From: Opitutaceae bacterium
GTDB lineage: Bacteria; Verrucomicrobiota; Verrucomicrobiia; Opitutales; Opitutaceae
Length of the DNA: 37,896 bases
Direction of reading: 5' to 3'
Assembly: GCA_005792355.1 (NCBI GenBank)
Contig: SXSC01000411.1
Span: 1 to 37,896, forward strand
Positions 10,355 through 25,578 of the stretch are shown here, in pieces. The position numbers and the translations under genes were made by a program. Position 1 is the first letter of the stretch. The number at the start of each line of letters is the position of its first letter. The notes under the pieces are model-generated. The model was not told the origin of the DNA. It did no database searches and saw nothing but the letters and a program-made list of their open reading frames with translations.

Positions 10355-10693
10355 TCAGTCCTGGTGGAACACTTCTTCCATGTCGGCCCACCACTCGTGG
10401 GCGGCGCGGCCGGCGAGCGGTTGCTGGCAGGGTTTGCAGACCGCCCACCATTTTTGCGTCGTGGGATCGGCGGCCATCCGGGCCATGTCGGCGGCGAAGT
10501 CCGTTCCGGTATACTCGAAATAGCTGAACAGATAATGCTGCCCGTCGTCGAGTTGGCGCAGGTAGATGGAGTAGTTTTGGATGTGGCACTGGCGAATCAT
10601 CGCCAGCACGTCGGGCCAGACGGCGGCGTGCAGCCGCTTGTATTCTTCGATCTTGTCGGGGCGGAGGCCGATGACGGAACCGTATCTTTTCAT
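10355..10693 (-). CDS. rhaM: L-rhamnose mutarotase
   Basis: A cytoplasmic protein of 112 residues that interconverts alpha- and beta-L-rhamnopyranose and so feeds the correct anomer to catabolism. It aligns with E. coli RhaM (104 residues): EEYKRLHAAVWPDVLAMI carries His22 at the same position as the catalytic His of the E. coli enzyme, NYSIYLRQLDDGQHYLFSYF matches the beta-strands, and QKWWAVCKP matches the conserved WW segment, ending in EEVFHQD. The start at 10693 gives the family length; the open frame runs back to 10759 without homology. It is the last gene of the four-gene rhamnose operon, ten bases after rhaT. Confidence 0.92.
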   Translation of the reverse strand: MKRYGSVIGLRPDKIEEYKRLHAAVWPDVLAMIRQCHIQNYSIYLRQLDDGQHYLFSYFEYTGTDFAADMARMAADPTTQKWWAVCKPCQQPLAGRAAHEWWADMEEVFHQD

Positions 10694-10703
10694 GGCGGGA
10701 GGT

Positions 10704-11771
10704 TCATTTGGGGGCGAGATCGCCGAGGTAATTGCCGTAGGTGAGAAGCAACACCGCACCGACGAGTACGGCCAGCGCGGCGCCGATCGTGGTGTGAGTT
10801 AGACGGCGGCAGGTGCGCCACTCGCTCAGGGCGATGCCCACGACGTTGCTGAAGAGCACGAGCATGATCATGTGGATCGCCCAGCTGGTGAACTTGTAGG
10901 TGCCCATGCGCACATGGCCGAGGTTGTAGAAGAAGAATTGGCCGTACCAGAAGAGCCCCGTGATGATCGCCATCGCCCAGTTCACCGGCAGTCGCGCCTC
11001 CTCCGGACCCGCGGGGAGCTCGACAATTTCGCCCAGTGTCCGGTGCTTGCGGTGGAGATACAGGCAGTAGATCGCCGTGGTCAGGAAGGCCCCCGTGTTG
11101 GAAAAAATGTAGACCACATTGCCGCGCCACACGCCGGCGCCGTGTGCCGAGGCCACGTCGGCGATCGGCTCACCCGCCTCGAGCGCAAAACCGTACACGG
11201 CCGAGAGCACACCCGCCAGCAGCGAGAGCGCGAGACCCTTGGCGAGGGAGAATTCACCCTTCGTGTCCTGGGCGGTGAGGTCGTTCTCCTTCAAGCGACC
11301 CGCCCAACCGGCGCCGGCGATGCCGATCGCGCCCACCACGATGCCGGCCACGATCCAACCCGCGCCGGTCTTGTCGAGCGTGGTTCCCAGTGTGCCCTTG
11401 ACGATCGGGGGTATCAGAGTTCCCAACACGCTGGAGAGGCCGACCGCGATCGCGTAGGTGAGCGAGAAACCGATGTAGCGAATCGACACGCCAAACGCCG
11501 TGCCGCCGATGCCGTAGGCCGCACCGAGCAGAAACGATTGCAGCATCGCCCCGCGCGGCGCCTCGCGCAGCACGGCCGCCAGATCGGGAATCGTCGCCAT
11601 CGCCCCGACGATCGGCAGCAGGAACCAGCAGAACGCCGCCTGCGTGAGCCAGTAGGTCTGCCAGGACCAGCGCTTGACCTGCTTCTGCGGTGTATAACAC
11701 GTCGCGGCAAAGAACGCCCCGACAGCGTGCAGCGCCACGCCGAGGAGGGGATTGGAGGTGATGGGATCCAT
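10704..11771 (-). CDS. rhaT: L-rhamnose-proton symporter
   Basis: An inner-membrane protein of 355 residues (E. coli RhaT has 344), with about ten hydrophobic helices. Family blocks include the N-terminal HAVGAFFAATCYTPQKQVK and WETYW-like SWQTYWLTQAAFCW, SIRYIGFSLTYAIAVGLSS followed by LGTLIPP, GVLSAVYGFALEAG, and WYGQFFFYNLGHVRMG near the C-terminus. It imports L-rhamnose with protons. It starts nine bases after the GH38-like gene and is followed after ten bases by rhaM, so the genes are one transcript. Together with RhaM it is the firmest evidence that this operon handles L-rhamnose. Confidence 0.93.
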   Translation of the reverse strand: MDPITSNPLLGVALHAVGAFFAATCYTPQKQVKRWSWQTYWLTQAAFCWFLLPIVGAMATIPDLAAVLREAPRGAMLQSFLLGAAYGIGGTAFGVSIRYIGFSLTYAIAVGLSSVLGTLIPPIVKGTLGTTLDKTGAGWIVAGIVVGAIGIAGAGWAGRLKENDLTAQDTKGEFSLAKGLALSLLAGVLSAVYGFALEAGEPIADVASAHGAGVWRGNVVYIFSNTGAFLTTAIYCLYLHRKHRTLGEIVELPAGPEEARLPVNWAMAIITGLFWYGQFFFYNLGHVRMGTYKFTSWAIHMIMLVLFSNVVGIALSEWRTCRRLTHTTIGAALAVLVGAVLLLTYGNYLGDLAPK

Positions 11772-11780
11772 GAAAGTCGA

Positions 11781-14366
11781 TTACTGGCCACCGGCGGGTG
11801 GATGGCCCTTCACGCCGGGGAGATAACGCCGCAGTGCCGCGCGCTTCGCCTCCGGCACGAGTTCGTCCCACTCCGTCAAAGCCTTGATTTCCGCCACCGC
11901 TGTCGCGGTGGTGAAGCGCAGAGTCACGATTTGCTGGGGGCGAATGGGGAAGGTGTATTTCGGCCCGCCGCGCAGCGGCTGCCGCCGGCCGCCCACGAGG
12001 TCTGTCAATGCCGCGCCGCGGTGCGTAAGATCGAGCATCACGCTGGCCTCGCCGCCGCGCCCGAGGCACTCCGCCAATCGCAGCTCGATCTCGCCGCCCT
12101 CGCGGCGCAGGGCTTCGACGATTACGTTGTCGCTGGTCTGCAGGAAAGACCGCGGCTTCGTCGCGGCACAGCCGTCGACCACGATGAGCGGTTGGTTAAA
12201 CTCCCACGCGAGCTGTGGCACGCGCGCCGTCGTGAAGTCCCCGGCGTGCGCGACCAGGGCGTAGCGCACGACATGGCGTCCCGCTCCACTCAGCCAGGAG
12301 TTGGGGTGCCCGCGATATTTCTCGGCCGCGTTGTAGAGGTAAATGACCGCCGTGCGGTCGTTGATCTCGCGGCCGCTGAGGCCCTGGTCCAGCAGCGCCA
12401 GCCCGCCGCCGGCCATCTGATAATGCGACCAGCGCACGGCCGGCGTGATCCCTTTACTGAAGCCGGACAACGCCGGGTTAGGTGTCGCCCAGGCGGCATG
12501 CGCGAACCCGTACGGAATGCCGCGCCGCACTTCGCGCACCGGCTCCGCCAACGGAAATTCGGCCACGACCACCGTGCGATCGGGGAGATCGTTGAGCTCG
12601 GTCTCGCAGTCGATCCGGGGATGCGCGCGATGGAAGGTCATGCTCCGGCGCAGGCGCCCGCCGCCAACAAAGGTCGATTCCGCTTCCACCACCACGGCGT
12701 CCGCACTTTCGCGGACACTGAGGCGCACCGCGGGCTGGTTCGAGTCGGCCACGCGCTCCCGCTCGGGCCGGTCCACCATGTGGTCGGCCGGACTGCCGGC
12801 CTTCTTCTTCGGCTGCTCCGCCACGACGACATTGGCCGGGCCACCGAGCATCTCGCGTCCGTCGGGCCGAAACTTGAGACTGAGAAGCGCAGCCGTGCTG
12901 GGATCGAGGCGCACCGTGTAGTGCTTCGTCTCAATCACCGCCGGCAGCGTGGCCTCTTTCGTGGCTTCCGGCGCGGATGCCGCACCGAAGGCACCGCCTG
13001 CCAACGTGGGCATATCCTGTCGCCGCCAGTTGAGGGGATTGAAGGCCACGGTGTTGGTGCCGGCACCCAGGAGGGATCGCGTGGCAGCGGTGGCGATCTC
13101 GCGCGCCCTCTTCTCCACCCATTCGAAACGGTCGCGGGCGTCCCAGCTGCGTTCGTGTTCGAAGACCATGCCACCCGCCGCGCCCCACAGCGTGTTGCGG
13201 TCCATGTTCAGGCAGAGGAGCAGCCAGGCGTGATAGAGCGCCTGCGTGGGATACACGTAGGCACCGCGCAGGCTGGCGGCCGTGGCGAGCATCTCGGCCG
13301 CCTGCAACTGTTGCTCGCATCGGCGGAACCAGGCCTTGACGCGCGGATTCTGGATCCAAAACGCGTTGTAGTTGAAGAGCGTGCCGCCGCGCATCACCGG
13401 CAGCCGGAACGCCCCGGAACGAATGCCCGGCCACAGCGCATCGAGGTAGCGGGCCGACGTGGCGAACTGGACATCGAACTCCGGCGCCGTCTGCCGGAAT
13501 TGTCGCAGAAATTCTCCGGGATATGGCTTGTGGAGCGGAGCCAGGCTGTAGTCGGCACTGCCGCCGAAGAGCAGCAGCGGAGCGCCAGGCGGGGAGCGCC
13601 GGGGTTCGCCGCCGGAAGGACGGGCATTCTTTTGGATCTCCTCGGGCGTGAGTGGCGTCGGATCGGCCCGCCACTGCAGGTCCGCCCGCAGCTCCGCGAG
13701 CTGTTTTTCGCTGAGCGGCGTCGTCGACTTGAAAACGGGAGACCAGTCGGCGTAGCGGCCCGGGGACACCGCCAGCGCGCGCGTGCCGTCGGGAGACTCG
13801 GCCCAGTGGATGACACTGCCCGTCGGGTTATGCCGGCAGTAGGCGAAGCCGTCGAGCCCGAGCCCCGCCGCAATCTGCGCCATCTGCTCGTGAACGCCGG
13901 TCACATCGATCATCCAGGCGAGCCGCGGCCGCACGCCGAAGATGGCCTGCTGCCAGCGCAGTCCCTCCACGCCGCATTTCACCAACGCCTCGCCCCCGGA
14001 GAGGTTGATCGTCGGCTCGAGGAAAAAGGCGTTGCAGAGCTCAACGCGCCCCTCGCGAATCCGCTGCTTGAGTTCCGCCGCGCGCTCGGGCCGGAAGTTC
14101 AGCATCGCGATCAAGTTGTTGCACTCGGAGAGGGCAAAACTGTACGCCGGATCATCGCGCACGCGGTCGAGATGATCGAAGTAGGAGTTGGCGCAGTAGT
14201 TGCGCTCGGTCGACCAGTCGGTGAGCCAGCCGCAGCTCGCCGGATGGAAGTTCGACACCACGTAGACCGGCCGGGGCAGCTCGGCCGCACCGGCGAGAGC
14301 GGAGATCGCGAGCCCGAGAGCCGCACCCCGCAGTTGCCATGATGGGAAACGCCAGCGGGCTTTCAT
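11781..14366 (-). CDS. Divergent GH38-like protein, exported
   Basis: A protein of 861 residues with a signal peptide (LGLAISALAGAAE) and the general layout of GH38 alpha-mannosidases: N-terminal barrel, helical region, large C-terminal beta-sandwich. GH38-like stretches are ERAAELKQRIREGRVELCNA, SGGEALVKCGVEGLRWQQ and MIDVTGVHEQMAQIAAGLGL. The usual zinc motif H-x-D near the N-terminus reads FHPASCGW (His41 but Ala43), and the position where the nucleophile Asp is normally found reads FFLEPTIN (Thr119). Both points are by-eye alignments. The protein is therefore either inactive or works on other chemistry. The start at 14366 overlaps the stop of the URO-D-like gene as ATGA, showing translational coupling; the longer open frame to 14564 is not needed. 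Its place between a URO-D-like gene and rhaT suggests a role with rhamnose-containing glycans. Confidence 0.7.
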   Translation of the reverse strand: MKARWRFPSWQLRGAALGLAISALAGAAELPRPVYVVSNFHPASCGWLTDWSTERNYCANSYFDHLDRVRDDPAYSFALSECNNLIAMLNFRPERAAELKQRIREGRVELCNAFFLEPTINLSGGEALVKCGVEGLRWQQAIFGVRPRLAWMIDVTGVHEQMAQIAAGLGLDGFAYCRHNPTGSVIHWAESPDGTRALAVSPGRYADWSPVFKSTTPLSEKQLAELRADLQWRADPTPLTPEEIQKNARPSGGEPRRSPPGAPLLLFGGSADYSLAPLHKPYPGEFLRQFRQTAPEFDVQFATSARYLDALWPGIRSGAFRLPVMRGGTLFNYNAFWIQNPRVKAWFRRCEQQLQAAEMLATAASLRGAYVYPTQALYHAWLLLCLNMDRNTLWGAAGGMVFEHERSWDARDRFEWVEKRAREIATAATRSLLGAGTNTVAFNPLNWRRQDMPTLAGGAFGAASAPEATKEATLPAVIETKHYTVRLDPSTAALLSLKFRPDGREMLGGPANVVVAEQPKKKAGSPADHMVDRPERERVADSNQPAVRLSVRESADAVVVEAESTFVGGGRLRRSMTFHRAHPRIDCETELNDLPDRTVVVAEFPLAEPVREVRRGIPYGFAHAAWATPNPALSGFSKGITPAVRWSHYQMAGGGLALLDQGLSGREINDRTAVIYLYNAAEKYRGHPNSWLSGAGRHVVRYALVAHAGDFTTARVPQLAWEFNQPLIVVDGCAATKPRSFLQTSDNVIVEALRREGGEIELRLAECLGRGGEASVMLDLTHRGAALTDLVGGRRQPLRGGPKYTFPIRPQQIVTLRFTTATAVAEIKALTEWDELVPEAKRAALRRYLPGVKGHPPAGGQ

Positions 14367-15565
14367 AAGGTTTCGTCGAACTCGCCGAGTTCGAGCGGAT
14401 AGCGCCCGTACTCGCGCACCAGCTGCACGATGTAGTCGTAGGTCGCGCCCGACACACTGCTGCTCACGGAGTGGTCCGACTGGAAGATCATCCCGCCCCC
14501 CTTGGCCGCGTTGAGCTTGCGCAGGACCTCGCGCATGATCGCCGCGCGATCGCCGCTCTCCCACACCTGCATGTCGCTGTTGCCGCAGAAGCCGATGCGG
14601 TGCCCGTACTGCCGGCGCAACTCCACCGCATCCATGCCGGCCTTCACCTCGAGCGGATTGTAGGCATCGATGCCGATCTCGATGTAGTCGGGGAAGATTG
14701 CCTTCACGTTGCCGCAGCCGTGATAGATCACCGGCAGGCCGGCGGCGTGCGCCGCCCCGGCGATCTGCGCGACCCAGGGCTTGAAATACTCGCGCCAGTA
14801 GACCGGCGAAAAGAGCATGCTCTTCTTGTAGGCGACATCGCCCCAGATCACGAAACCGTCGAGCAGCCCCGCGCCCGCGGCGATCTCGGCCTTGGCCATC
14901 GCCAGATGATGCGCGCCGATCCGGTTAATCACTGCCCCCATCTCCTCCGGATACTCGCCCATCCACAATAACGCGTTTTCCTGGCCGATGAGCCGCGTAA
15001 GGCACTCACTCACCTCGATCATGCTGCCATACACGGGAAAATCGGGCCGGAGCGACTTGACCGTCTCGATCCACGCAGGCGAGTTGCGGGCGAACCCATC
15101 GCCCACGCCCGCGATCTGATTGTCCCCCGCGCTGAAGAAGCGCCGCGGGTCGTCCGGCGGATCGAACTGCGCGCCCTGGAGTTTCTCAAACGTGTCCGTC
15201 TCCCAGGCGCGCATCTCCGGCATCGGATAGGAGAAATGCTTGTGCATGATCGCGCCGAAACCGGTCTTCACCGTCACCTCCTCCGCCGTCTCGCTGAGCG
15301 TCTCGAAGGGCCGGATCCACGGGTCCATGTTTGGCACCGTGACGATCCAATCGAGGTCGTAGTGATAATACGGATTCGCGTCGTCGGGCAGGCCAAGCTC
15401 CTGCCGCCAGCGGCGCGTGAAGCCGCCCCAGAAGAAATCACTGATCGGCACGCAGTCCGGCTCCTCGTGACGCAGCGCCTGGTTCATGCGCTCGAGTTTG
15501 CGCAGGGTGTTGGGCTTGCGCGCGGCGGTCTCCGCGCTCTTGCCGACGGTGTCGAACATGCTCAT
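14363..15565 (-). CDS. URO-D-like (MtaA/CmuA-type) protein in rhamnose operon
   Basis: A soluble protein of 400 residues of the uroporphyrinogen decarboxylase superfamily, which also holds cobalamin- or corrinoid-dependent methyltransferases. Visible blocks are ALRHEEPDCVPISDFFWGG, the barrel strand DGFVIWGDVAYKKSMLFSP, GLPVIYHGCGNVKAIFPDY with a possible metal-binding His/Cys pair, and NPLEVKAGMDAVELRRQYG. It is not a heme-pathway hemE by context: it is the first gene of the rhamnose operon and is coupled by ATGA overlap to the GH38-like gene. Members of this branch recur in verrucomicrobial sugar clusters with no assigned role. The start at 15565 is one of two close ATGs (15559). A shared AraC-type operator lies 72 bp upstream. 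Confidence 0.75.
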   Translation of the reverse strand: MSMFDTVGKSAETAARKPNTLRKLERMNQALRHEEPDCVPISDFFWGGFTRRWRQELGLPDDANPYYHYDLDWIVTVPNMDPWIRPFETLSETAEEVTVKTGFGAIMHKHFSYPMPEMRAWETDTFEKLQGAQFDPPDDPRRFFSAGDNQIAGVGDGFARNSPAWIETVKSLRPDFPVYGSMIEVSECLTRLIGQENALLWMGEYPEEMGAVINRIGAHHLAMAKAEIAAGAGLLDGFVIWGDVAYKKSMLFSPVYWREYFKPWVAQIAGAAHAAGLPVIYHGCGNVKAIFPDYIEIGIDAYNPLEVKAGMDAVELRRQYGHRIGFCGNSDMQVWESGDRAAIMREVLRKLNAAKGGGMIFQSDHSVSSSVSGATYDYIVQLVREYGRYPLELGEFDETL

Positions 15566-15612
15566 GGGAAAAATGCGGCGCGGTCGGGACAATCGACCAC
15601 GCCAACTCGCGC

Positions 15613-15674
15613 ATCATAACGGATCCGCCGGGCGTTTGGCTATGCCGGATCCGCGCGAAGTTGTGTCTGATTCG
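15613..15674 (-). promoter_or_regulatory. Candidate AraC operator and promoter of rhamnose operon
   Basis: On the plus strand two similar half-sites, TATGCCGGATCC (15641-15652) and TGTGTCTGATTC (15662-15673), lie 21 bp apart, as in classic AraC-family operators. The 38-bp block 15637-15674 matches 30 of 38 bases, without gaps, to 24445-24482 upstream of the GH29 gene; mismatches cluster in the spacer. For minus-strand transcription, TATGAT (15618-15613) fits a -10 box, and the proximal half-site would sit at the -35 region. The predicted start of transcription would leave a leader of about 40 bases before the URO-D-like gene. Confidence 0.65.
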
Positions 15675-15861
15675 TGCGCCGTGTCTCCAGGCCGAAGAAA
15701 ACCCGCGCCTCGAACAACCGGCCGGTCTGCCACTTCGTTCAATCCAGGCCGAGGCGCTGGCATGGAACATGCGCACACGGTCAAACTTGGCGATCCGCGC
15801 TTCTTGGCCGTGCCTTTGCCGGAATTCTGGGAAATGTAGGCGCGCCTTTCGGCGTCAAGGT

Positions 15862-15910
15862 GTCGCAAACGCTGCCGTCCAAACCAGCGTGGTCAGATCG
15901 GCAGACGGCC
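15862..15910. repeat. Direct repeat copy 1 flanking small gene
   Basis: This ~49-bp stretch closely matches 16159-16207 in the same orientation, with shared runs such as GCAAACGCTG, CCAAACC and CGGCAGACGGCC. It lies just downstream (in the minus-strand sense) of the 73-residue gene, while copy 2 lies directly upstream of its start. The period is about 297 bp. Confidence 0.65.
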
Positions 15911-15933
15911 TCTACCCGGTGCTCGATCGGCTT

Positions 15934-16155
15934 TCAGCGCGTGCTCACCCGCCCGGTCCGCAGCTCAATGATCGCATCGACATCGACGATCTGCCCGCCG
16001 CCGTTTTCCTTCCACACTATCAACGTCCGCCGGTTGGGCGCAATCGAGACGAAATCCGGATGCGGAACACGAATCGTACGGTCACTTGGCAGGACGATCG
16101 CAAACGGCCGGAAGGGCGCAGCATGTAACCGCTCCTTGATTTGATCGGCGTCCAT
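15934..16155 (-). CDS. Small conserved hypothetical protein (73 aa)
   Basis: A protein of 73 residues starting MDADQIKERLHAAPFRPFA and continuing with PSDRTIRVPHPDFVSIAPN and a closing strand QIVDVDAIIELRTG. It resembles a short beta-rich family that I recognise as widespread in verrucomicrobial and planctomycete genomes (pattern M-x-x-x-Q-I-K-x-x-L-x-x-x-P-F-x-P-F), with no known function. The start at 16155 is where the conserved motif begins; the open frame continues to 16299 through the repeat. The gene is bracketed by the two copies of a ~49-bp direct repeat, so it may have moved or been duplicated as a small cassette. Confidence 0.6.
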   Translation of the reverse strand: MDADQIKERLHAAPFRPFAIVLPSDRTIRVPHPDFVSIAPNRRTLIVWKENGGGQIVDVDAIIELRTGRVSTR

Positions 16156-16158
16156 GTT

Positions 16159-16207
16159 CGTGCAAACGCTGCTTTCCAAACCCGCGTTGTCAAACCGGCA
16201 GACGGCC
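16159..16207. repeat. Direct repeat copy 2 flanking small gene
   Basis: Second copy of the ~49-bp direct repeat seen at 15862-15910. It lies immediately upstream of the 73-residue gene, so it probably contains that gene's ribosome entry and perhaps its promoter. The copy downstream would then be a duplication scar. Confidence 0.65.
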
Positions 16208-16235
16208 ATTTGATCCCCCTGGGTTGATCCCTTTT

Positions 16236-16532
16236 TCAACCAAGGCGGTGAACCCAGTAGTTCGGCTCGCGGTGGAGGGGCATGACGGCGAGAATCCAAA
16301 TGTCGGCCGGGCGCTCGACGTAGAGGATGCCGTAGGGAAACTCGCGGGTGAAGTGGCGACGGACGGGTGGGCTGATTTGGCGGAAGGTTTGCGGTCGCGC
16401 GCAGACCTCAGCAATCAGGCGCTCAATCTCGTCGTAGAACCGGCCGCCGAGTTCTGGGCTGATGGCGGCGTAATGCTGCGCGGCCTCGGCGTATTCTTGG
16501 TCGGTCTCGGGGTGGAGGGCGTGTGGCTTTAC
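16236..16532 (-). CDS. ParE/RelE-family toxin-like protein, start codon lost
   Basis: About 98 residues of the ParE/RelE plasmid-stabilisation fold: HPETDQEYAEAAQHYAAISP, GGRFYDEIERLIAEVCARP, RRHFTREFPYGILYVERPAD and the closing strand IWILAVMPLHREPNYW. ParE toxins poison gyrase and RelE toxins cut mRNA; which applies is unknown. Homology begins at a GTA codon (16532-16530) that overlaps the antitoxin stop as GTAA. A GTG there would give the common GTGA overlap, so a single G-to-A change seems to have removed the start. No ATG, GTG or TTG replaces it nearby; the only upstream ATG in frame (16637) would add 35 unrelated residues. The toxin is probably silent or poorly made. Confidence 0.7.
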   Translation of the reverse strand, partial: VKPHALHPETDQEYAEAAQHYAAISPELGGRFYDEIERLIAEVCARPQTFRQISPPVRRHFTREFPYGILYVERPADIWILAVMPLHREPNYWVHRLG

Positions 16533-16762
16533 CGGCCGACGATCTTCCGAATACGCGCCGACGTGATGTGCCCGGGGACGGGCTTGACCGTGCCGTTTTC
16601 CATCTCGGCGAGGCGGCGCGTCGCGGTGGCGGTCCACTTCTGTTCGATCTTTGGATCAAGGGGCCCGTGAGCGGCGAGCGTGATGCGCTCGAGCAACTCG
16701 GGCAACTGCTCGGGCGGGAGCTTGCGCGTCTCTTCGACAATTTGTTCGAGCGTCAACGGCAT
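16529..16762 (-). CDS. Addiction-module antitoxin, TIGR02574-like
   Basis: A protein of 77 residues (MPLTLEQIVEETRKLPPEQL, then PELLERITLAAHG) of the small helical addiction-module component family that pairs with ParE/RelE-type toxins. The second half has the usual WTATATRRLAEMENGTVKPV segment (xxRxxEixxGxvxxvpg) that wraps the toxin. The start at 16762 is the start of the homology; upstream in-frame sequence to 16930 is unsupported. Its stop TAA overlaps the first codon of the toxin. It would bind and neutralise the toxin and normally represses the pair. Confidence 0.75.
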   Translation of the reverse strand: MPLTLEQIVEETRKLPPEQLPELLERITLAAHGPLDPKIEQKWTATATRRLAEMENGTVKPVPGHITSARIRKIVGR

Positions 16763-16863
16763 GGCGGAAATCAAACGCGAATACGTGGCAGCGTCAATCG
16801 GCGGATTCGTGGCGCGTGCCCAAGTGGCCGACGGTGCAGAGGGCGGGGAGCGGAGAGTCCACG

Positions 16864-16918
16864 GGGTCAACCCGCTGATCGCTATTCCAAGGGCGAGTAG
16901 CAAACAGCGGGTTGACCC
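16864..16918. repeat. 14-bp perfect inverted repeat (REP-like hairpin)
   Basis: GGGTCAACCCGCTG (16864-16877) and its exact reverse complement CAGCGGGTTGACCC (16905-16918) enclose a 27-base loop. It lies 37 bp beyond the stop of the GH28-like gene and about 100 bp upstream of the antitoxin gene. It could end transcription of the GH operon or be a REP-like element of the type mobilised by the RAYT transposase family, a broken member of which is at 36.2-37.2 kb. Confidence 0.6.
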
Positions 16919-16954
16919 TCGTTTGATCACGCCGCGGGTCGAGGGACCGGAGCG

Positions 16955-18427
16955 CTACCGCTTCAATCCCGTCAGATCCGAGTCCACCGTGATCCTGCCC
17001 GGGCCGGGCGACACCTTGGCGGAAAAGTCATCGTGGAACTCCAGGTTCGAGGAGGTCTTCAGCACGATCTCCTTGTTCGGCACGCTGTTCATCAGGAGAT
17101 CCATCGTCCCCGGCTGGTTGAACACGCAGCCGTAAAGATTGATCTTGGTCCGGCCATAGTCGGGCATCGCCTTGTTGCCGTGGAAATCGATCCGGCTGTT
17201 GCGGAAACTGCAGTTCGCGATCGTCAACACATCGACCGGGGTGCCGATGGAGAGGAACTCCTTCCTCTGGTCATGGAGGACCCGGATGTTGTCGAAGGTC
17301 AGCTGCTCCTGTTGCGGGACCTTCGCCCCCGGGTAATAGGAACGGCTGAACCGATCGTTGTCGAAGTGCACCGAGAAGCCGATGCGCGGCTTCCCGAGGA
17401 AGATGTCCCGGAAGACGACGTTCCGCACGCCCGCGGTGTAGGTCACGTCGTTTTGCACGACGACCCAGGTGATGCCGTCGAGCACCTGCGAGCCGCTCGC
17501 GTGGGCGGGCTGGGTGGTGGACGGGTACCGCTTGCCGTCCGGACTGCCGAAGACGCGGTAGAGCCGGCCGTGGGCGACCACTGTATCCGATTTCTGGACT
17601 TCCATTCCCGCCTGCCAGTCAATCCAGGCTCCGGCCAGAATGCGGCAAAAGTAACCCACGGGTTTCTTCCCGTCGGCAAGGTCGTGACAGTTTTCCACCA
17701 CGCCGTCCTCGATCCAGCCCAGCTCGGGGTTGCCGACATCGTAGTCGTGGGCGTTGAGGGCGACGGCGTCATCGTAGGTCCGGAACGTGCCGCGGCTGAT
17801 CGTGAAGCGCTTGCCCCGGCCGAGGTGCACGCCGTCCTTGTCGCCCTGCAGGATGACGTCGTTGATGACGATGTCCTCGAAGGTGCAGACATGGATCCCG
17901 TACTGCAACTTGCCGATGTCGAGGCAGCGGAAGCGTTCGATGCGCAGGTCCTTCACGTAGAAAAACGCGAGCTGGCCGTGCAGCCCGTACACAAGGAATT
18001 TCCTCACATCCATGCCGTTGACGATGATCGACAGGCCCTCCACGGAGATGTGCTCGTCGTAGGTCTTGGTCAGCGCGCCCTTGTTGAGCAGCACGTGCGA
18101 GAACGCGCCCTGCTCGTCGATTTTTTTCAGGAAGACGTTGTGGCCAAAGATCAGCGACGTATGGCTGCTGAGGAAAACGGTGCCGGCGACCTTGTAGGTG
18201 CCGGGCTGGCTCACGATGATCGTGCCCGTCTGGTCCACCGCGCGCTGCAGCGCCTTCATGTTTTCCAGTCCGCTGGTGTCGGGCGAAAAGCCGAAGTGCG
18301 CGGCGTTCACAAAACCGGCCGGCGCGACGGACCCGGCGGCGGGAGCGGCCGGTGCCGGTTGGCTGCGAACGGAGACAAGTCCGGCAGCGAGGGGCAGCAG
18401 GAGGAGGGCGATGTGGAGGAGTTTCAT
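16955..18427 (-). CDS. GH28-like right-handed beta-helix protein, exported
   Basis: A protein of 490 residues with a signal peptide (MKLLHIALLLLPLAAGLVSV). After a pectate-lyase-superfamily-like opening (NAAHFGFSPDTSGLENMKAL, LQRAVDQTGTIIVSQPGTYK) it is a beta-helix of repeated short strands, e.g. NVVFRDIFLGKPRIGF and VLTIANCSFRNSRIDFHG. DGVHLGRGKRFTISRGTFRT and TYDDAVALNAHDYD resemble the GH28 active-site G-x-D-x and D-D-x-V/I-A segment, with Asp-Asp retained. GH28 enzymes cleave galacturonans or rhamnogalacturonans; the exact substrate is not readable. It is the last gene of the TonB receptor-GH127-GH28-like operon, 25 bp after GH127. The start at 18427 gives the signal peptide. Confidence 0.75.
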   Translation of the reverse strand: MKLLHIALLLLPLAAGLVSVRSQPAPAAPAAGSVAPAGFVNAAHFGFSPDTSGLENMKALQRAVDQTGTIIVSQPGTYKVAGTVFLSSHTSLIFGHNVFLKKIDEQGAFSHVLLNKGALTKTYDEHISVEGLSIIVNGMDVRKFLVYGLHGQLAFFYVKDLRIERFRCLDIGKLQYGIHVCTFEDIVINDVILQGDKDGVHLGRGKRFTISRGTFRTYDDAVALNAHDYDVGNPELGWIEDGVVENCHDLADGKKPVGYFCRILAGAWIDWQAGMEVQKSDTVVAHGRLYRVFGSPDGKRYPSTTQPAHASGSQVLDGITWVVVQNDVTYTAGVRNVVFRDIFLGKPRIGFSVHFDNDRFSRSYYPGAKVPQQEQLTFDNIRVLHDQRKEFLSIGTPVDVLTIANCSFRNSRIDFHGNKAMPDYGRTKINLYGCVFNQPGTMDLLMNSVPNKEIVLKTSSNLEFHDDFSAKVSPGPGRITVDSDLTGLKR

Positions 18428-18452
18428 AGGGGAGGACGGGGCGCGCCGGGTT

Positions 18453-20246
18453 TCATCGGCCGGAGAACAGTTCGTCGTCCACGGCGACGCGGTAGTCGCG
18501 GAGGCGAAAATAGGTCGCCTTGCCTTCGGCATTGGGAAATTCCGTCAGCGTCAGTTCGTAGTCGGCTTTCTGGCCCAGCCCGAAACCGGCTTTCCACATC
18601 TGCACGCCACCGCCCAGCCCGTCGGGGCGCACGGCCGTGTTGCGCACCGGCTCGCCGAGCGAGTCCGGATTGATCGCGAGATAACCGAGCTCGGTGCCGT
18701 CGAGCTTGGCGAGCGCCGGGTGCTGCGCCGGATCCAGACAGAACACCTGCGGGCCACGCATCACGGCGACCCGCCCGGCTTGGCGCTGGCGTCCTTTCAC
18801 GAGCCGCCATGCCATCGGCATCTCCAACCCAACCTCGTCGCCCGGTCTCCACTCGCGTCGCACCTCGAAGAACGCCCCCGGTTTGACCGCGCCGCGCGCC
18901 GGCTGGCCGTTGACGGTCACGCTCGCCCGCGCCGCCCACGACGGAATCCGCAGGCGCAACGTGAAGACCGTGGGTTTTTCGGGCGACACGGCGAGCCGGA
19001 CGCGACCGGAATTCGGGTAGTCGGTTTCCTGGCGGAAGGTGACGGCATTGATGGTCGCCCGCGCCGGCGCGTACAGGTTCACCGCGACGCCGTCACTGGC
19101 GCGGTAAAACACGAACGCCGGCAGTTCGGCGATGATGCGCCGGAAGTTGCATGGGCAACAATAGGTGTCGGTCTTCCAATAGACGCGGTTGCCCTCCAGC
19201 GGCGCGAAGTAACGCAGCCGCCGGCCATCGGGTGATTGCGAGGCGAACAGCGCGTTGAAGATCGTACGTTCCATCAGGTCGCCCATGCGCGGGTCGGCAT
19301 TGAGGCGGAGCAGGCTGTCGTACACGCGGAGCTGATACGCCAGGGCGCACGATTCACCCACGTCGCCGCGGGCGTCCTGGTCGTCGTTCCAGATTTCACA
19401 CTGGCCGGCGCTGCCGGTGAGCAGCGCGCCGTCGTGGCGCGTCATGAAATCGAGCGCGCGTTGCGCCGGTCCGAGCAGGCGCGCCGACGGCTGGAGCCGG
19501 TGGAGTTCGAGTTGGGCGAGACCCCGCGCCATGTACGCATAGACATGGCCTTCGATGCCCTGCCGGCGACCGATCACGACGCCGAGGTCCCACTCCGGCA
19601 ACGCGCGCGTCTGGGTGACGAACCGGAGATACGCCGCGTCGCCGGTGGCGCGGTGCAGCGCGAGCATCGTGCGCTCGATGCCGGTGAACGCGACGTGCGG
19701 CGCGACCTCCGCGCCGCGCCCCCAGTCCGGCGGCAGCACCGACCAGTGCTTGATGAGGTAATCAGCCGCTTGGCGCGCGGCGGTGAGCGACGGCGCTGCG
19801 CCGAAATGCCGGTGGTCCTCGAGCAACGCCCAGATGAGGTAGCCCAGCTCATGCACGTCCCAAAGCGTCTGGATACGTTTCGCCGGCTCGAGCGTGCCGA
19901 TGTAACCGTCGGCCTCCTGCGCCGCGAGGATCTTGGCAACGAGATGTCGCTTCAACGCGATCACCTGCGGGTCGCCCGTGTGGGCGGCGAATTTCACTAC
20001 GGAGTCGAGCATCATGCCGAGACCGATAAACTTCCCGGTGCGCGGCGATTCCGTGAAGGGCCGCAGAAAGTCGGCGTCGACGTCGAGTTTCAGCAGGTTG
20101 TTGGCGACGGTGATGGCGATGCGTCGCCCGATTTCGCCGCCGACTTTGACTTCGCGCACATCGAGTGGCGCCAGCGCATCGGCCCCCGCCACCGGGAACG
20201 TCGCCGGGAGCAGGGCGAGGAGGATGAGAGGGCTGAGTTTGTTCAT
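18453..20246 (-). CDS. GH127-like beta-L-arabinofuranosidase, exported
   Basis: A protein of 597 residues of the GH127 (formerly DUF1680) family, an alpha/alpha-barrel with C-terminal beta-sandwich. A signal peptide (MNKLSPLILLALLPATFPVA) precedes the barrel: FIGLGMMLDSVVKFAAHTGD, AAQEADGYIGTLEPA and TLWDVHELGYLIWALLEDH are typical. YWKTDTYCCPCNFRR holds Cys363, Cys364 and Cys366, matching the zinc-binding and nucleophilic Cys cluster of GH127. Members hydrolyse beta-L-arabinofuranosides or related pentose and uronic residues, for instance in pectin or extensin. It lies between the TonB receptor (20 bp upstream) and the GH28-like gene (25 bp downstream), so the three are one operon. Confidence 0.85.
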   Translation of the reverse strand: MNKLSPLILLALLPATFPVAGADALAPLDVREVKVGGEIGRRIAITVANNLLKLDVDADFLRPFTESPRTGKFIGLGMMLDSVVKFAAHTGDPQVIALKRHLVAKILAAQEADGYIGTLEPAKRIQTLWDVHELGYLIWALLEDHRHFGAAPSLTAARQAADYLIKHWSVLPPDWGRGAEVAPHVAFTGIERTMLALHRATGDAAYLRFVTQTRALPEWDLGVVIGRRQGIEGHVYAYMARGLAQLELHRLQPSARLLGPAQRALDFMTRHDGALLTGSAGQCEIWNDDQDARGDVGESCALAYQLRVYDSLLRLNADPRMGDLMERTIFNALFASQSPDGRRLRYFAPLEGNRVYWKTDTYCCPCNFRRIIAELPAFVFYRASDGVAVNLYAPARATINAVTFRQETDYPNSGRVRLAVSPEKPTVFTLRLRIPSWAARASVTVNGQPARGAVKPGAFFEVRREWRPGDEVGLEMPMAWRLVKGRQRQAGRVAVMRGPQVFCLDPAQHPALAKLDGTELGYLAINPDSLGEPVRNTAVRPDGLGGGVQMWKAGFGLGQKADYELTLTEFPNAEGKATYFRLRDYRVAVDDELFSGR

Positions 20247-20266
20247 TTAGTTTTCGCCCTCCCGTC

Positions 20267-23200
20267 CTAAAATGAGTACCTTGCCGCGAGCTTGAAGCCG
20301 CGCGGGGCAATGATGCTGAAGGTGTGCGGGGTCGCCACGCGCGCCGGCGAAAGCACGTTGCCCTCGGGCGGGCGCATCGTCGTGCCGATGTACTGCACGT
20401 CGCGGTAATTGAAGAGATTGGAGATCGAGAGATTCAGATCGATCCGCCGCTCCAGCACCTTCACCGGGTAGCCGACAGTGGCAACGCCCGTGTAGTAGGA
20501 CTGGGCGCGCACCACCGTATAGGCATCGCGGGCGGGGTCGTCGATCGCGCGGGCCGCATTGGCGGGATCGACGATCGTATCCGCGCCGCGATAGCCGATC
20601 ACCTGCGGGCCGCGGAACTGCATCCCAAAGCCCAAGCGCAGCCCCTTCAGCTTCTCGCGGCTGACTCGGTAGTCGGTGAACAGATTCACGGTGTACGGCG
20701 TGGACCGGTTCACGTGCTGCGATCCCGACACGACGTTGCGCAGAAAATTCTGGAGGTTGTTCCAGGCATTGGCGCCGCTGTTGCCGTCCGGGGAGCCGGT
20801 CGTCGTGAGCGTGGCAAAATTGTTGGAGTCGATTGTCACGCCGGCATCGGCGAGGATCTGCCGCATCAGCGTGTCGTTGGTCGCCACGAACCGCCGCAGT
20901 TCCGCGTAGGCGTTCTCCTGTTTGGCGTCGGCGAGCGACCCGTTGGCGGTTAACCGCCAATTGGAGGTGAGGTTGCCGACGATCTCCAGTTCGTAGCCCT
21001 CGGCGCGGTAATCGCGGGTGTCGTAGTAGTCGGTCGGCACCGGCTGCATGCCGCGGTTGTTGCGGCCGCCAGTGGAATTGTCGCCGAGCACGTTGACGTT
21101 GCTGATGTCGTTCATCTGCGGCGTGGCGTTGTTGCGGAAGGGCACGCCCTTTTCCGTGCTCTCGTAACGACTGAGATTCACCACCACGCGGCCCTGGAGC
21201 AGGTTGAGGCGCAGGCCGTAGTCGAGTCCCTTGGACGCCGCCGGCGGCGGAATGGAATAGTCCAACAAGGTGAGATTGCCATCGACCGGGCTGAAGCTCT
21301 GCGAGGCGCTGGCCCAGACCGAGAACACCTCGGTGAGGTTGACGATGCCCCCCAGCGAGGTCGTCGGCTTGCTTTGCTTCTGCCTGGGCGGGTTGAAGTC
21401 GTCGCGGAAGCGGTCGTTCGCGTACTGCGCCTGCGGCACGCCGTCGGTGCGGGGCCGCGTGGTCGCGGGCAGGGGCGTCGCGTTGGTGACCACGCCGGCC
21501 GTGCTCTTGGTTTGATAGGTGAGCTTGAAGTAGTCGTCCGGCGCCTCGGGCCGGTAGAAGACGCTCATCGGATCCTGGTAGTCCGCCGGGTAATCCATGG
21601 CCCACCGCGAGTACTTGATGCCCCGCTCAAACGTATCCCAGCGGCTGGCCCCCAACAGGATGAGGCGCTTCTTGAAGAAGGACATCGTCGAGGCGGCGAT
21701 CAGGTTCTGGGTCTCCTGATCGCGGAACTGCACGGAGTCGGGCCGGCCCAGGTTCATCACCCAGCGTGGCGTGACCTCGCGGGTGGTGTTCGTGATCGGG
21801 TCGATCACGCTGACGGGCCCCAGGGCCGTGTTGAGCTCCCGCGTCGGGGAATTGGCGTAGAGCCGGTAATTGAGTTTGTAGGTATCCGAGAGCACGGCCC
21901 CCCAGCGCCGCGCATCGGCCGACAATGGCAGCACGTACAAGGGCTTCGTGGCCTCGTTCTCGTTCGTCTCGTTGGCGCCGATGAGGTTGAACTTGAGATC
22001 GACCCACTTGAAGTTCCGCACGTAGGCCAGCGAGGCGCGCAGGCTCTGCGAGGTAATCAACTGCTGGTTCTGCTCCAGGGAGGTGCCCTCAATGTACGGC
22101 ACGAGCAGGTTGGGGTTGGGCTCGCCCGTGGGCAGCACACGGTTGATGTCGATGTAGACGCGGCTCGTGTTGCTCCACTCCGCGACGTTGCCCCACGACT
22201 TGCGCTTCGTGAGATTGGCCGAGAGCTGGAGCAACAGATGCCGGCCGATGCGCTGATCCAGATACAGCGCCACGTTTTTCAGTCGCTGCACGTTGCCGAC
22301 ACTGTCGAAGAACTGCGGTTTCTCCAGCGACGGGATGACCAGGCCGCGGGCGCCGGCGAGGGCGCGGTCAAAGATGTTGGCGGGCCGGTTGGTCTGCCAC
22401 AGGAACGGCGTGCCATCATAACTCACGCTCGCAAAACCCGTCGGCACGGCCACGCCGGCGACCGTCGTGGGACTGGTCGAGGCGCCGCCCGTGCGCATCA
22501 TACGCCCCCAGTTCACGATCTTGTTCGTCGCGAGGTTGGGGCTGAAGACGTAGTAATTATCGGTGTAGCGGAAGCCGCCGAACTGCCGCTGCTCGGCGGT
22601 CTGCTGCCCCGTGTAAGTGGTGACGCCGTCCCAGGCCGAAATCGCCTCGGTCATGTAGCTGAATGGCTGCTGGCTCTGGCTCTCGCTGTATTCAGTGGCC
22701 AGCGTCAGCCGAGTCGTGGGGGTGAGCTCCGTCGTCACTGCGGGCGCGAAGCCGTACTTCTTCGTGTAGGTGTAGTCCTGCCAGCCCTGGCCGTCCTGCC
22801 ACACCGCGTTGAGGCGCAGGGCCACCTTGCGGCCGAGCGGTTGGTTGTGATCGAAGGTGACGCGTTTGTGATACCACGAACCCGTCTCGAGCCCGACGCT
22901 GGTCGAGCGATGATTGAGCCGCGCCTGCTTGCCCACGGCGTTGGTCGTGCCACCCATGCCGCCGGCCCCGAAGAGAATGGCGTTGGGCCCGCGGGCGAAG
23001 TCCAGTCGCTCCAGATTGAAGGAATCGTAGTTCATGCCGCCCTGCAACGAGGGTGCGGAACTGTCGAAGTTCTTCTGGCTCGCGTTGGCCGCGATGCCGC
23101 GGACGGTGGAAATGCCCGTGCCACCGAACATGGAATCACCGCCGTCATCGGGCGTCGCCACCACGTTGGGCGCCCACTGCTGCGCCTCGACCATGTCGCT

Positions 23201-23518
23201 CAGATTCAGGGCCTCGAGAAACTCCTTCGTCAGCACCGAATAGGACGCGGGGGTGTCCCGCAGATCACTGTTGATGCGCCCGCCGGCGAGCGACTCCTTG
23301 GCCACGAAGCCGACGTCACGCGACGTGTTGACGGTGAAGGCGTCCAGCACGACGGCCTCGCTCGCGGTCTTTGTCGCTGGCGCGGCACTCGGCGCGTTCG
23401 GCACGGACTGCGCCGGGAGGCTCCAGCCCAGCGTCAGGCAGAGGGCAACCGCCAGCGCCGGGCGCCAGTGGCGGGAGGACAGCAGGGAGTAATGCGGGTT
23501 CGACCGGGGGTTGATCAT
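20267..23518 (-). CDS. TonB-dependent outer-membrane receptor
   Basis: A receptor of about 1083 residues that would take up oligosaccharides or other ligands. After a signal peptide (PALAVALCLTLGWSLPAQS) comes the plug with an early VVLDAFTVNT segment, RDTPASYSVLTKEFLEALN, and RGPNAILFGAGGMGGTTNAV, the plug strand seen in nearly all TonB receptors. The remainder is a long beta-barrel ending GFKLAARYSF with a terminal Phe, the outer-membrane insertion signal. It has no STN domain, unlike the receptor at 30.8 kb. No SusD-like lipoprotein accompanies it, as usual outside the Bacteroidota. An alternative start is 23569. It heads the GH127/GH28-like operon and probably imports the substrate of those enzymes. 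Confidence 0.88.
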   Translation of the reverse strand: MINPRSNPHYSLLSSRHWRPALAVALCLTLGWSLPAQSVPNAPSAAPATKTASEAVVLDAFTVNTSRDVGFVAKESLAGGRINSDLRDTPASYSVLTKEFLEALNLSDMVEAQQWAPNVVATPDDGGDSMFGGTGISTVRGIAANASQKNFDSSAPSLQGGMNYDSFNLERLDFARGPNAILFGAGGMGGTTNAVGKQARLNHRSTSVGLETGSWYHKRVTFDHNQPLGRKVALRLNAVWQDGQGWQDYTYTKKYGFAPAVTTELTPTTRLTLATEYSESQSQQPFSYMTEAISAWDGVTTYTGQQTAEQRQFGGFRYTDNYYVFSPNLATNKIVNWGRMMRTGGASTSPTTVAGVAVPTGFASVSYDGTPFLWQTNRPANIFDRALAGARGLVIPSLEKPQFFDSVGNVQRLKNVALYLDQRIGRHLLLQLSANLTKRKSWGNVAEWSNTSRVYIDINRVLPTGEPNPNLLVPYIEGTSLEQNQQLITSQSLRASLAYVRNFKWVDLKFNLIGANETNENEATKPLYVLPLSADARRWGAVLSDTYKLNYRLYANSPTRELNTALGPVSVIDPITNTTREVTPRWVMNLGRPDSVQFRDQETQNLIAASTMSFFKKRLILLGASRWDTFERGIKYSRWAMDYPADYQDPMSVFYRPEAPDDYFKLTYQTKSTAGVVTNATPLPATTRPRTDGVPQAQYANDRFRDDFNPPRQKQSKPTTSLGGIVNLTEVFSVWASASQSFSPVDGNLTLLDYSIPPPAASKGLDYGLRLNLLQGRVVVNLSRYESTEKGVPFRNNATPQMNDISNVNVLGDNSTGGRNNRGMQPVPTDYYDTRDYRAEGYELEIVGNLTSNWRLTANGSLADAKQENAYAELRRFVATNDTLMRQILADAGVTIDSNNFATLTTTGSPDGNSGANAWNNLQNFLRNVVSGSQHVNRSTPYTVNLFTDYRVSREKLKGLRLGFGMQFRGPQVIGYRGADTIVDPANAARAIDDPARDAYTVVRAQSYYTGVATVGYPVKVLERRIDLNLSISNLFNYRDVQYIGTTMRPPEGNVLSPARVATPHTFSIIAPRGFKLAARYSF

Positions 23519-23655
23519 GGTTCGTAAGCGGGATAGTGAAACCAAGATGGAATCGTTGTGCGGGATCATGGGTGAGCTAGGTGTTTAAGGTTGGGTTTGC
23601 CCGGCCGCCTGTTTGGCTGGGTCTGAAAGATCATGGCATGCGGGTCAACACGGCG

Positions 23656-24339
23656 TCACCGCGGGGCTGCGCCCACGAGGCGGCCGAGTTCCCGCAGGCG
23701 CTGCACGGATTTTTCCGGAATCAGCCCGTCGCGATCGGGCGGGACGTTGAGAAGGTAGTTCGCGTTGCGTTCCCGAGACAGCCGGTACGTCTCGGCCATG
23801 CGCTCGACGCTCTGCAGGTCGGCATCGCCCAGCCCAGGGTGCCAGAACCAGCGGGCCTGGGTCTGGAGGGTGTCGCACAGCTCTGCGGGCGACTGATTGC
23901 CGTCCGGGGGCAGCATGCCGGTGTGACCGGGCAGACCGTGTAGCTTGCTGGCCTTTCCCTGCGGGGTTAGCGGCCACTCGTAGCTCAGCACATCGCTCTG
24001 CCGGAGATTGTGCGCGTTGTTGGCGACCAGCACACACGACGGAGCAAGACACCAACCGCCGGTGTGTTTGACGGTGAGGATGGCGTAGCTCATGCCCGCG
24101 GCCTTGGCCGCATCCGCCCACTGCCCGCAATCGAGCTCGGTGGGCGCAAATAGGGCCGGGTCCTCGTGGCCGTTGGCCCATTCGCTGTCGGCAAAGGTGC
24201 TGACGTTGAAATGCAGGAAGAGGCCGAAGCGCCAGGTCGCGAAATCTCTCTGCCGCGGATGCAGCGCGGCCACCTCCGTCGCCACTGCGAGGGTGCAGGG
24301 ATTCGACGCAAGCCCACCCACGAGCAGCAGAATCAACAT
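23656..24339 (-). pseudogene. Internally deleted GH29 alpha-L-fucosidase
   Basis: An in-frame protein of about 227 residues (252 if started at 24414) that resembles GH29, normally 430-500 residues. The N-terminal part is typical: FATWRFGLFLHFNVSTFADS, then WADAAKAAGMSYAILTVKHT and GGWCLAPS. The C-terminal part is also typical: TLQTQARWFWHPG, then SVERMAETYRLSRERNANYL and LLNVPPDRDGLIPE. Between residues near CLAPS and VLVANNAHNLRQSDVLS the barrel middle (roughly 170-200 residues, with the nucleophile Asp region) is absent. The frame stays open, so a product may be made but should be inactive as a fucosidase. The start at 24339 begins a signal peptide (MLILLLVGGLASNPCTLA). Its promoter has the same operator as the rhamnose operon. 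Confidence 0.7.
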
Positions 24340-24420
24340 CCCAAGTGTTCCCCGCGGATGGCGACGGAAGACCGGCTGGTGTCGAGGCAAAGGGGTCCGC
24401 TCGGATCGGCTCATGGGATG

Positions 24421-24482
24421 AGTTTACCCGATTGACGGGCGTCCTGGCTATGCCCGATCCTGTCAAAGTTATGTCCTATTCG
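24421..24482 (-). promoter_or_regulatory. Candidate AraC operator and promoter of GH29 gene
   Basis: Plus-strand half-sites TATGCCCGATCC (24449-24460) and TATGTCCTATTC (24470-24481) form a 21-bp direct repeat (9 of 12 bases identical). The block 24445-24482 is the counterpart of 15637-15674. For minus-strand transcription TAAACT (24426-24421) fits a -10 box 23 bases from the first half-site base, the same distance as at the rhamnose operon. The element overlaps the first codons of the divergent araC gene, so binding could also repress araC. Confidence 0.65.
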
Positions 24483-25334
24483 CTCAAGGGGCACGTCAAC
24501 CGCGGGGCCTACGACCAGCCGTATTCGGGAGTGGGGATCGAGTTCGACCCGCTGGGCGTCAAGCCGGGCCGCACCGGCATCACGCTGCATGAAAGCGGCT
24601 TTCTCCCCGCGAACGACGACTGGAACTTCCCGGCGGTGTTCAGCCCGTTCTGGCGGCTCTACTACAACCGCCAGCGCGGACACTGTGTGCTCTTCGGGGA
24701 GCGCGACATTGAGCTGACACCGCAGCACATCCTGCTGATCCCGCCGCACTGCCTGTTTCACTGTCTCGGCGGGAATCCCGTGCCGACCTTCTGGCTGGCT
24801 TTCAGCTTCACCCAGCGGCCGCACCCGGAGCAGGACGTGCCCATGCTGCTCCCGCCGCGCGACACCGAGCTGTGTCTCATCCGCGACCTGCAGGCGCTCA
24901 TCACGGCCGATGAAAAATGGGATCCGACCGATGCGATCTACCGCAACAGCCTCGCGCTGCTACAGGTCGTGCTGTCGCGTCCGGAACTGCGCTGGCAACC
25001 GCCGGTGCCGGAGCCGATGCTGCGGGTGCGACAATATATCGAAAGGCAGTACGGCACCAAGCTGCTCGCGCCCGAACTCGCACGCCGGGCGGGCCTGAGT
25101 GTCGCCGGTTTCAACCGGGCCTTTCGCCGGCACTTCGGCACGACACCGGCCCAGTATGTGATCGAGATGCGCGTGCGGGAGGCGGCGCGGCGGCTGTTGC
25201 AGACCGACGAAACGCTCGACGCGATCGCCGAAGAGTGCGGGTTCCCGAATCGCGCCTACTTCAGCCGGGTGTTCAAACGCGTGACAGGAGTTGCCCCCGC
25301 CGGATTCCGCACGAAACACCGCAGACCGGAGTAG
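24450..25334 (+). CDS. AraC-family transcriptional regulator
   Basis: A regulator of 294 residues (287 if started at ATG 24471). The N-terminal domain has the sugar-sensing look of this group: GITLHESGFLPANDDWNFPA, FSPFWRLYYNRQRGHCVLF, LTPQHILLIPPHCLFHCLG. The C-terminal double HTH is complete: LLAPELARRAGLSVAGFNRA, then LDAIAEECGFPNRAYFSRVF and the tail KRVTGVAPAGFRTKHRRPE. The exact start is uncertain: no Shine-Dalgarno is visible, and the putative operator covers both candidate starts. It is divergent from the GH29-TonB-GH127-GH28 genes and likely controls them and, by the shared operator, the rhamnose operon. A 3' fragment of a close relative lies at 37298-37392. Confidence 0.9.
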   Translation: MPDPVKVMSYSLKGHVNRGAYDQPYSGVGIEFDPLGVKPGRTGITLHESGFLPANDDWNFPAVFSPFWRLYYNRQRGHCVLFGERDIELTPQHILLIPPHCLFHCLGGNPVPTFWLAFSFTQRPHPEQDVPMLLPPRDTELCLIRDLQALITADEKWDPTDAIYRNSLALLQVVLSRPELRWQPPVPEPMLRVRQYIERQYGTKLLAPELARRAGLSVAGFNRAFRRHFGTTPAQYVIEMRVREAARRLLQTDETLDAIAEECGFPNRAYFSRVFKRVTGVAPAGFRTKHRRPE

Positions 25335-25364
25335 GTTTTACGGTTAGCCCGCCGGGGGCGCGAC

Positions 25365-25578
25365 CCGCACCACCTCGAATAGACTCCGCGGCCCTCGCCA
25401 AGGTCGGCCGACCGGCTTATCCATGGCGCACCTCCGGCAGGAGCTTCTCGACCATCATGACGGTGCCGCCGTAGAGGGCGATTTCAACGCCGGCGTTGCT
25501 GTTTCGCGCAAAATTAGCCCAGGCGCGTCAGCGCACGGATGCTATCGGCCCGGGAGAGGCGGCAGGAGCGGTCGCCCG
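25365..25578 (-). pseudogene. Decayed copy of the nucleotidyltransferase module
   Basis: This stretch matches two separated parts of the intact module at 8654-9638. The bases 25455-25578 match the first third of the nucleotidyltransferase gene but carry a nonsense change (GAA to TAA in the LGELCAKQQ segment) and a one-base insertion soon after. At about 25450 the sequence jumps from YGGTVMM directly to EKLLPEVRHG, the last residues, so roughly 390 bp including the catalytic Asp pair are missing. It then continues into the partner gene start (ATG 25424-25422, 20 codons up to SLFEVVR) before diverging. It is a clear pseudogene and shows that the two genes were mobile or duplicated together. Confidence 0.82.

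Follow-up and report, generated by a model that had tools for sequence, protein, structure and literature searches.

Class II regulators of the AraC/XylS family, among them Escherichia coli AraC at araI1–araI2, bind tandem half-sites approximately two helical turns apart, with the proximal half-site at the edge of the −35 position, and autoregulate from the same intergenic region. In class II activation by AraC proteins, the proximal half-site stands in for the −35 element. The AraC-family rhamnose regulators of Bacillales, Bacteroides and Enterococcus are described as using direct-repeat operators with a 21-bp periodicity and group-specific motifs (Rodionova et al. 2013, PMC3870299); the same study describes E. 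coli RhaS and RhaR as AraC-family positive regulators of rhamnose genes, with RhaR binding an inverted repeat of 17-bp half-sites. Here we analyse a 37,896-nucleotide stretch of DNA from an Opitutaceae bacterium (contig SXSC01000411.1, hereafter the window) that carries two related AraC-type operators, one overlapping the start of an AraC-family gene and the other, hereafter the orphan, upstream of a rhamnose operon with no AraC gene adjoining. Our preferred reading, to which we give a probability of roughly 70%, is that one inherited AraC-type operator was orphaned at the rhamnose operon by loss of its AraC gene, and would be bound there in trans, with class II-like activation of the operon.

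The two operators lie in blocks at positions 15637–15674 and 24445–24482, offset by 8,808 bases, which align without gaps at 30 of 38 bases. Each block is formed by two 12-bp half-sites arranged as a direct repeat with a 21-bp period, 15641–15652 and 15662–15673 in the first block and 24449–24460 and 24470–24481 in the second, with half-site sequences of approximately TATGYCNGATYC and TATGTCNTATTC. Between the blocks, four of the nine spacer bases differ, compared with 4 of the 24 half-site bases. The orphan operator (15641–15673, plus strand) was placed by motif search, site model, matrix and alignment to the five sites found at AraC gene starts. The second operator (24449–24481, plus strand) sits between the AraC gene at 24450 and the leftward GH29, TonB, GH127 and pectinase genes. 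On the minus strand, both blocks have a −10-like hexamer at a distance of 22 nt from the proximal half-site: TATGAT (15613–15618) for the promoter of the URO-D/rhamnose operon, and TAAACT (24421–24426) for the minus-strand genes of the 24450 locus. The alignment, the half-site coordinates and spacing, the concentration of mismatches in the spacer and the two hexamers had been put forward in an earlier note on this DNA, and all are borne out by direct reading. The same note described the second site as upstream of its genes; an operator is indeed present at 24449, but the note overlooked that it spans the predicted AraC start codon (24450) together with a second in-frame ATG (24471), and perhaps covers AraC's own promoter.

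The bacterium's own genome (G000) is an 8.4-Mb draft in 416 contigs. There, the motif occurs at three places with up to three mismatches, the two window sites and C45:3470–3502, and no further site is found with that motif search or with a site model at E ≤10. On C45, the site coincides with the start of an AraC gene that shares 88% identity with AraC 24450. A motif search of 57 genomes, this one and 56 relatives, gives matches in three: its own genome, G022 with one site and G018 with two. On G018:C37 and G022:C19, the site is flanked on one side by an AraC gene of the 24450 subfamily and on the other by a divergent orthologue of the URO-D-like gene that follows the orphan in the window (86% and 83% identical, respectively). 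Behind URO-D lie a GH38-like gene in G018 and RhaT in G022, both of which are also in the window. The relatives are thus organised as URO-D–site–AraC. AraC together with the site occurs again on the bacterium's own C45 and on G018:C235, there divergent from a GHL6-type glycosidase gene. The direct repeat of approximately 21 bp is present in all six sites and, together with their recurrence beside AraC genes in relatives, supports the tandem AraC-type operator proposed earlier; likewise, the pairing of orthologous URO-D genes with the site and a divergent AraC in G018 and G022 upholds the proposed link of one regulator type to both the rhamnose operon and the 24450 locus. Recurrence and synteny indicate that the two window blocks are homologous by descent, and that the 15641 site is, as judged from these comparisons, an AraC/URO-D operator whose adjoining AraC gene is gone.

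Homology to the AraC loci ends directly after the orphan site. In the stretch occupied by AraC in the relatives (15675–16954), blastn and tblastn with AraC find nothing above background past its first 11 codons, so that no trace of the gene follows the site. Some of these 1,280 bases resemble sequence in 14 of the 57 genomes, its own included. The stretch also holds a local direct repeat of about 63 bp (15849–15910 and 16145–16207, 83% identity). Within the site itself, among the positions invariant in the other five sites, the orphan keeps 8/8 in half-site 1, 7/9 in half-site 2 and 4/6 in the spacer, counts that compare one orphan with five related copies. It no longer has TTGACG or the final T of GATCCT, and its second ATG has become GTG; the operon −10 is retained. 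In the 24450 copy, TTGACG (24432–24437, plus strand) and GATCCT (24456–24461, plus strand), the latter a weak consensus match that overlaps half-site 1, are the proposed −35 and −10 of AraC's own promoter, and all five AraC copies carry TTGACG followed at 17–18 nt by GATCCT or GATTGT. A sigma-70 scan of 24380–24520 calls no promoter, so this pair of elements is a proposal. Such a pattern, with the half-sites and the operon −10 kept and the AraC-only elements gone, would be expected if the operator still served the operon after loss of the AraC gene.

On the operon side, a TAnnnT hexamer lies 21–22 nt from the proximal half-site in all six sites. The −35 positions at a 17-nt spacer read AGCCAA, AGCCAG, TAGCCA, TAGACG, TAGCCG and AGCGAT, poor hexamers of which the best, TAGCCA at the orphan, matches the consensus at four of six positions. 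This spacing and the poor −35s fit the class II geometry that the earlier note had proposed, with a reservation at the orphan promoter that is given below.

The 30 of 38 matches are not compelling alone, because 38-mer pairs with at least 30 matches occur at five further offsets in the window; recurrence in other genomes is the independent test. The best direct 38-mer pair in six Markov resamples has 27–29 matches, compared with 30 in the window (direct orientation only), and a degenerate motif, written from the two window sites themselves, occurs at up to three mismatches twice in the window and in none of 100 dinucleotide shuffles. A matrix built from relatives only, using three sites (two from G018 and one from G022) and neither window site, gives its two highest scores among all window 35-mers to 24448 (55.5) and 15640 (34.4), with 7.4 as the next. 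In a matrix background scan, the four best scores (51–62) are presumably those of the four training sites, and the fifth is 20.6. A site model trained with both window sites included gives them E-values of 2e-7 and 1e-9 per genome. With this ranking, these E-values and the synteny, a chance resemblance between two unrelated stretches becomes exceedingly improbable, and the recurrence in G018 and G022 already refutes it. Far-fetched as well, if less so, is the idea that the similarity reflects shared protein coding at AraC N termini, with no DNA-binding site. Five of the six sites do overlap a predicted AraC coding start, and a weak match in another genome, G146, falls at the MPDP start of an unrelated gene. 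Yet, across the five AraC genes, codons 1–11 have the highest synonymous identity of 177 eleven-codon windows (0.89; median 0.63), whereas their amino-acid identity is below the median, with 34 of the 177 windows as low or lower; this comparison is limited to the first 187 codons because the G018:C235 copy ends there. In the same genes, third positions are A/T at 5–7 of 9 in codons 2–11 versus 2–3 of 19 in codons 12–30. The rows being related, the codon evidence for conservation at the DNA level is supporting, short of proof. The internal 21-bp repeat, the sixth site, which has the motif without an AraC gene, and the possibility that AraC starts at 24471, leaving half-site 1 non-coding, likewise argue against a purely coding origin.

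More weight, within what we still consider unlikely, goes to the view that the 15641 block is a dead fragment of a lost AraC gene start, left by deletion and with no present regulatory role. Its translation in the AraC frame reads MPDPREVVSDS against MPDPVKVMSYS, its position equals that of AraC in the relatives, and its half-site 2 is changed at two positions invariant in the other five sites. The survivors, however, are the operator and the operon-side −10 at the right distance, with the AraC-specific elements gone; 15 of 17 invariant half-site positions are retained against 4 of 6 in the spacer, small numbers in both cases, and the operon behind the orphan looks intact. We find it a little less plausible again that the operator is real but that another AraC-family gene (6321–7232, plus strand) runs the rhamnose operon, with the 15641 site either bound by its product or redundant. 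This gene starts 8 bp from a divergent arabinose/fucose-isomerase-like gene (4730–6313) of the same cluster, and its best family match is RhaS (PRK13503), at 72.9 bits far below the cut-off of 288. The class of site described here nevertheless accompanies the 24450-type AraC in G000, G018 and G022, and the 31 kb of G022 that were read hold no close counterpart of the 6321–7232 gene (the best stretch, at 37%, is in the 24450-type AraC). The candidate site at the start of this other AraC (6325) has a matrix score of 6.9, indistinguishable from background, versus 34.4 for the orphan.

The sites have a narrow distribution. Of 252 family genomes, four have a match to the site model, namely the three AraC carriers and G146. 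The G146:C28 match (E 0.001, with about 0.3 chance matches expected over 252 genomes) lies at the start or an inner methionine, MPDPAEIV, of a mechanosensitive-channel gene (PF00924) and was rejected. A further model match, G018:C282 (E 1.6), agrees at 18 of 35 positions and was not accepted as a site. With three copies in 8.4 Mb and four matching family genomes, one of them through the mechanosensitive-channel gene, the genome-wide search that the earlier note had asked for lends no support to a general sugar-gene element. That note's weak third match upstream of the TonB receptor gene (23612–23626) is also at chance level: the short match is real, but its three occurrences, two of which are the real sites, compare with 1.6 expected, 21 of 100 shuffles equal that count, and the matrix score is −14. 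Close URO-D orthologues were found in eight genomes, with the site in G000 and G022 only; this search covered 200 family genomes, and G018, which was not among its matches, was read separately. For all six orthologues outside the genus, the site and any recognisable relative of the 24450-type AraC are absent from the stretch of up to 1.5 kb covered on either side, which rules out the operator as a general fixture of the URO-D operon.

A number of these observations count against an operator retained for use after loss of its regulator. The same six orthologues indicate that the operon does not need the operator. The 24450-type AraC is carried by just 3 of 27 genus genomes and the sites are homologous, so that the independent observations are few, and the orphan is a single case. 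One orphan may also be compatible with a recent deletion, with nothing selected, and the two changes in half-site 2 could leave it weakened. TAGCCA-18-TATGAT at the orphan passes a loose sigma-70 scan, which makes some activity without AraC possible; the 6321–7232 AraC, of another type and within the rhamnose cluster, could regulate the operon; and A/T-richness is common at gene starts for unrelated reasons.

The candidate for binding at both sites is the AraC-family regulator encoded at 24450–25334 (plus strand), which starts at ATG 24450 or at the in-frame ATG 24471. Its C-terminal double helix-turn-helix of approximately 100 residues is recognised by PF12833 (E 2.7e-24, residues 210–288) and is modelled as helices over residues 191–290, with a mean pLDDT of 81–95 in ten-residue blocks. 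For residues 1–190, beta strands are predicted with block pLDDT of 24–64 from a 4-row alignment, and Pfam AraC_binding is unmatched at E 0.001. At E 1e-40, AraC proteins of this type are found in 5 of 95 relatives, two of them outside the genus at 37–38% identity, and the nearest named relatives are at most 38% identical. The earlier note took AraC 24450 as the obvious candidate regulator. The same subfamily stands divergent from URO-D with the site in G018 and G022; the C45 paralogue is an equally good candidate, and probably one or the other acts in trans on the orphan site.

At the DNA level, the AraC copies are 89–90% identical within one genome and 80–81% identical between G000 and G018, a pattern that would be explained either by separate duplications or by homogenisation through recombination. 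Both G000 (C45) and G018 (C235) hold a GHL6-linked AraC copy, yet copies within a genome are closer, a possible sign of gene conversion that included the operator. Forks inside the subfamily are weakly supported in the AraC tree, and distances alone were used. A third, partial AraC of G018 (C174, residues 143–294), lying at a contig end, could be the remainder of the C235 copy and was excluded from the codon counts and the tree. The 3′ end of the AraC gene (25255–25339) matches 37302–37386 at 88%; both are among short dispersed repeats of 77–92% identity that include 25359–25571, 9002–9094 and 9488–9608.

Behind the orphan, the first gene is the URO-D-like gene (14363–15565, minus strand, ATG at 15565; PF01208), whose G018 and G022 orthologues keep the divergent AraC. 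It is followed on the same strand by a GH38-like glycosidase gene (11781–14564), whose frame overlaps URO-D, whose true start is probably near 14.3 kb and which adjoins URO-D in G018 too. The L-rhamnose–proton symporter RhaT (10704–11771; PF06379, E 2.4e-54) and the L-rhamnose mutarotase RhaM (10355–10759; PF05336, E 4.3e-33), both also on the minus strand, come next, and the cluster continues with a GH106 rhamnosidase, a sulfatase and a sugar isomerase-like protein. Genes for rhamnose use, RhaT, RhaM and, further on in the cluster, GH106, are thus found behind the orphan site. A terminator-like hairpin with a T run (15576–15604, minus strand), possibly an attenuator, lies in the leader predicted to run from the TATGAT promoter to the URO-D start; the leaders of G018 and G022 contain no comparable T run, as judged by eye.

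The genes leftward of AraC 24450 are all on the minus strand. The nearest is a GH29 open frame (23656–24414) with N- and C-terminal matches only, as compared with the GH29 gene of the C45 cluster, which is full-length (483 amino acids; PF01120 over positions 16–345 of 345). About 50 residues separate the two matches, versus about 160 in the C45 gene, and matches to the frame in other genomes are open frames of 356–1255 amino acids that cover its N-terminal part only. The missing middle should, we presume, hold the nucleophile. The frame is probably an internally deleted relic, which sets aside the earlier suggestion of GH29 as a working target. Beyond it lie a TonB-dependent receptor (20267–23569; PF07715), possibly transcribed from the 24421 promoter as suggested by orientation and spacing, a GH127 beta-L-arabinofuranosidase (18453–20246) and a pectate-lyase-like or rhamnogalacturonase-like protein (16955–18532), the last a weak match below the Pfam cut-off. 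For these three genes, the 24421 promoter may matter.

We propose the following history and mechanism. The ancestral layout would have placed the operator between URO-D and a divergent AraC gene, overlapping the start of the regulator. In the bacterium's own genome, AraC would then have left its place beside URO-D, the operon keeping the operator and its −10 and losing the parts that seem to serve AraC only. Acting in trans, AraC 24450, the C45 paralogue or both would occupy the orphan site, the proximal half-site being set against the −35 position, and would activate the rhamnose operon in a class II-like manner in response to the sugar, which is probably L-rhamnose or an oligosaccharide containing rhamnose. 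At its own locus, bound AraC would activate the leftward promoter, which reads into the GH29 relic and perhaps into the TonB receptor, GH127 and pectinase genes, and would hinder its own promoter, a form of self-repression in which the AraC transcript would start just before ATG 24471. More tentatively, and at somewhat less than even odds, we suggest that approximately 60 bp form a composite in which an activator site for the divergent operon, the promoter of the regulator and its start codon are superimposed. On departure of AraC, the operon layer would have survived and the regulator layer disappeared; a regulator that had acted locally would thereby act in trans and link rhamnose use to the neighbouring pectin/fucoside locus.

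If true, gene loss would here have dissected a promoter naturally, hinting at which of its bases belong to the regulator gene and which to the operon. It would also offer a testable operator/regulator pair for rhamnose and pectin use in the Verrucomicrobia, for which the titles and abstract openings listed by a few searches of open-access papers showed no described AraC operator. The result would be useful for annotation and regulon inference, and would leave the general understanding of AraC regulators unchanged.

The window sites resemble those of E. coli AraC, as outlined above, in their tandem half-sites and, if the proposed mechanism holds, in a proximal half-site at the −35 edge and in autoregulation from the same intergenic region. 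The protein itself scores 51.9 bits against the NCBIfam model of E. coli AraC (cut-off 208), 53.0 against RhaS (cut-off 288) and 40.4, 37.8 and 30.2 against three RhaR models (cut-offs 363, 525 and 384), and is assigned to none of them as an orthologue. Unlike the repeat described for E. coli RhaR, the repeat in the window is direct rather than inverted. The regulators of Rodionova et al., in whose main text 'Verrucomicrobi-' occurs 0 times, share with this system the AraC family and a 21-bp direct repeat in front of rhamnose genes. In contrast to the systems described there, here the operator overlaps the start of the regulator gene, and one of its copies lacks an adjoining regulator gene. 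As far as these descriptions go, the architecture of the site is already known for AraC-family rhamnose regulators, and the points of interest are the composite operator and its apparent retention after loss of the regulator.

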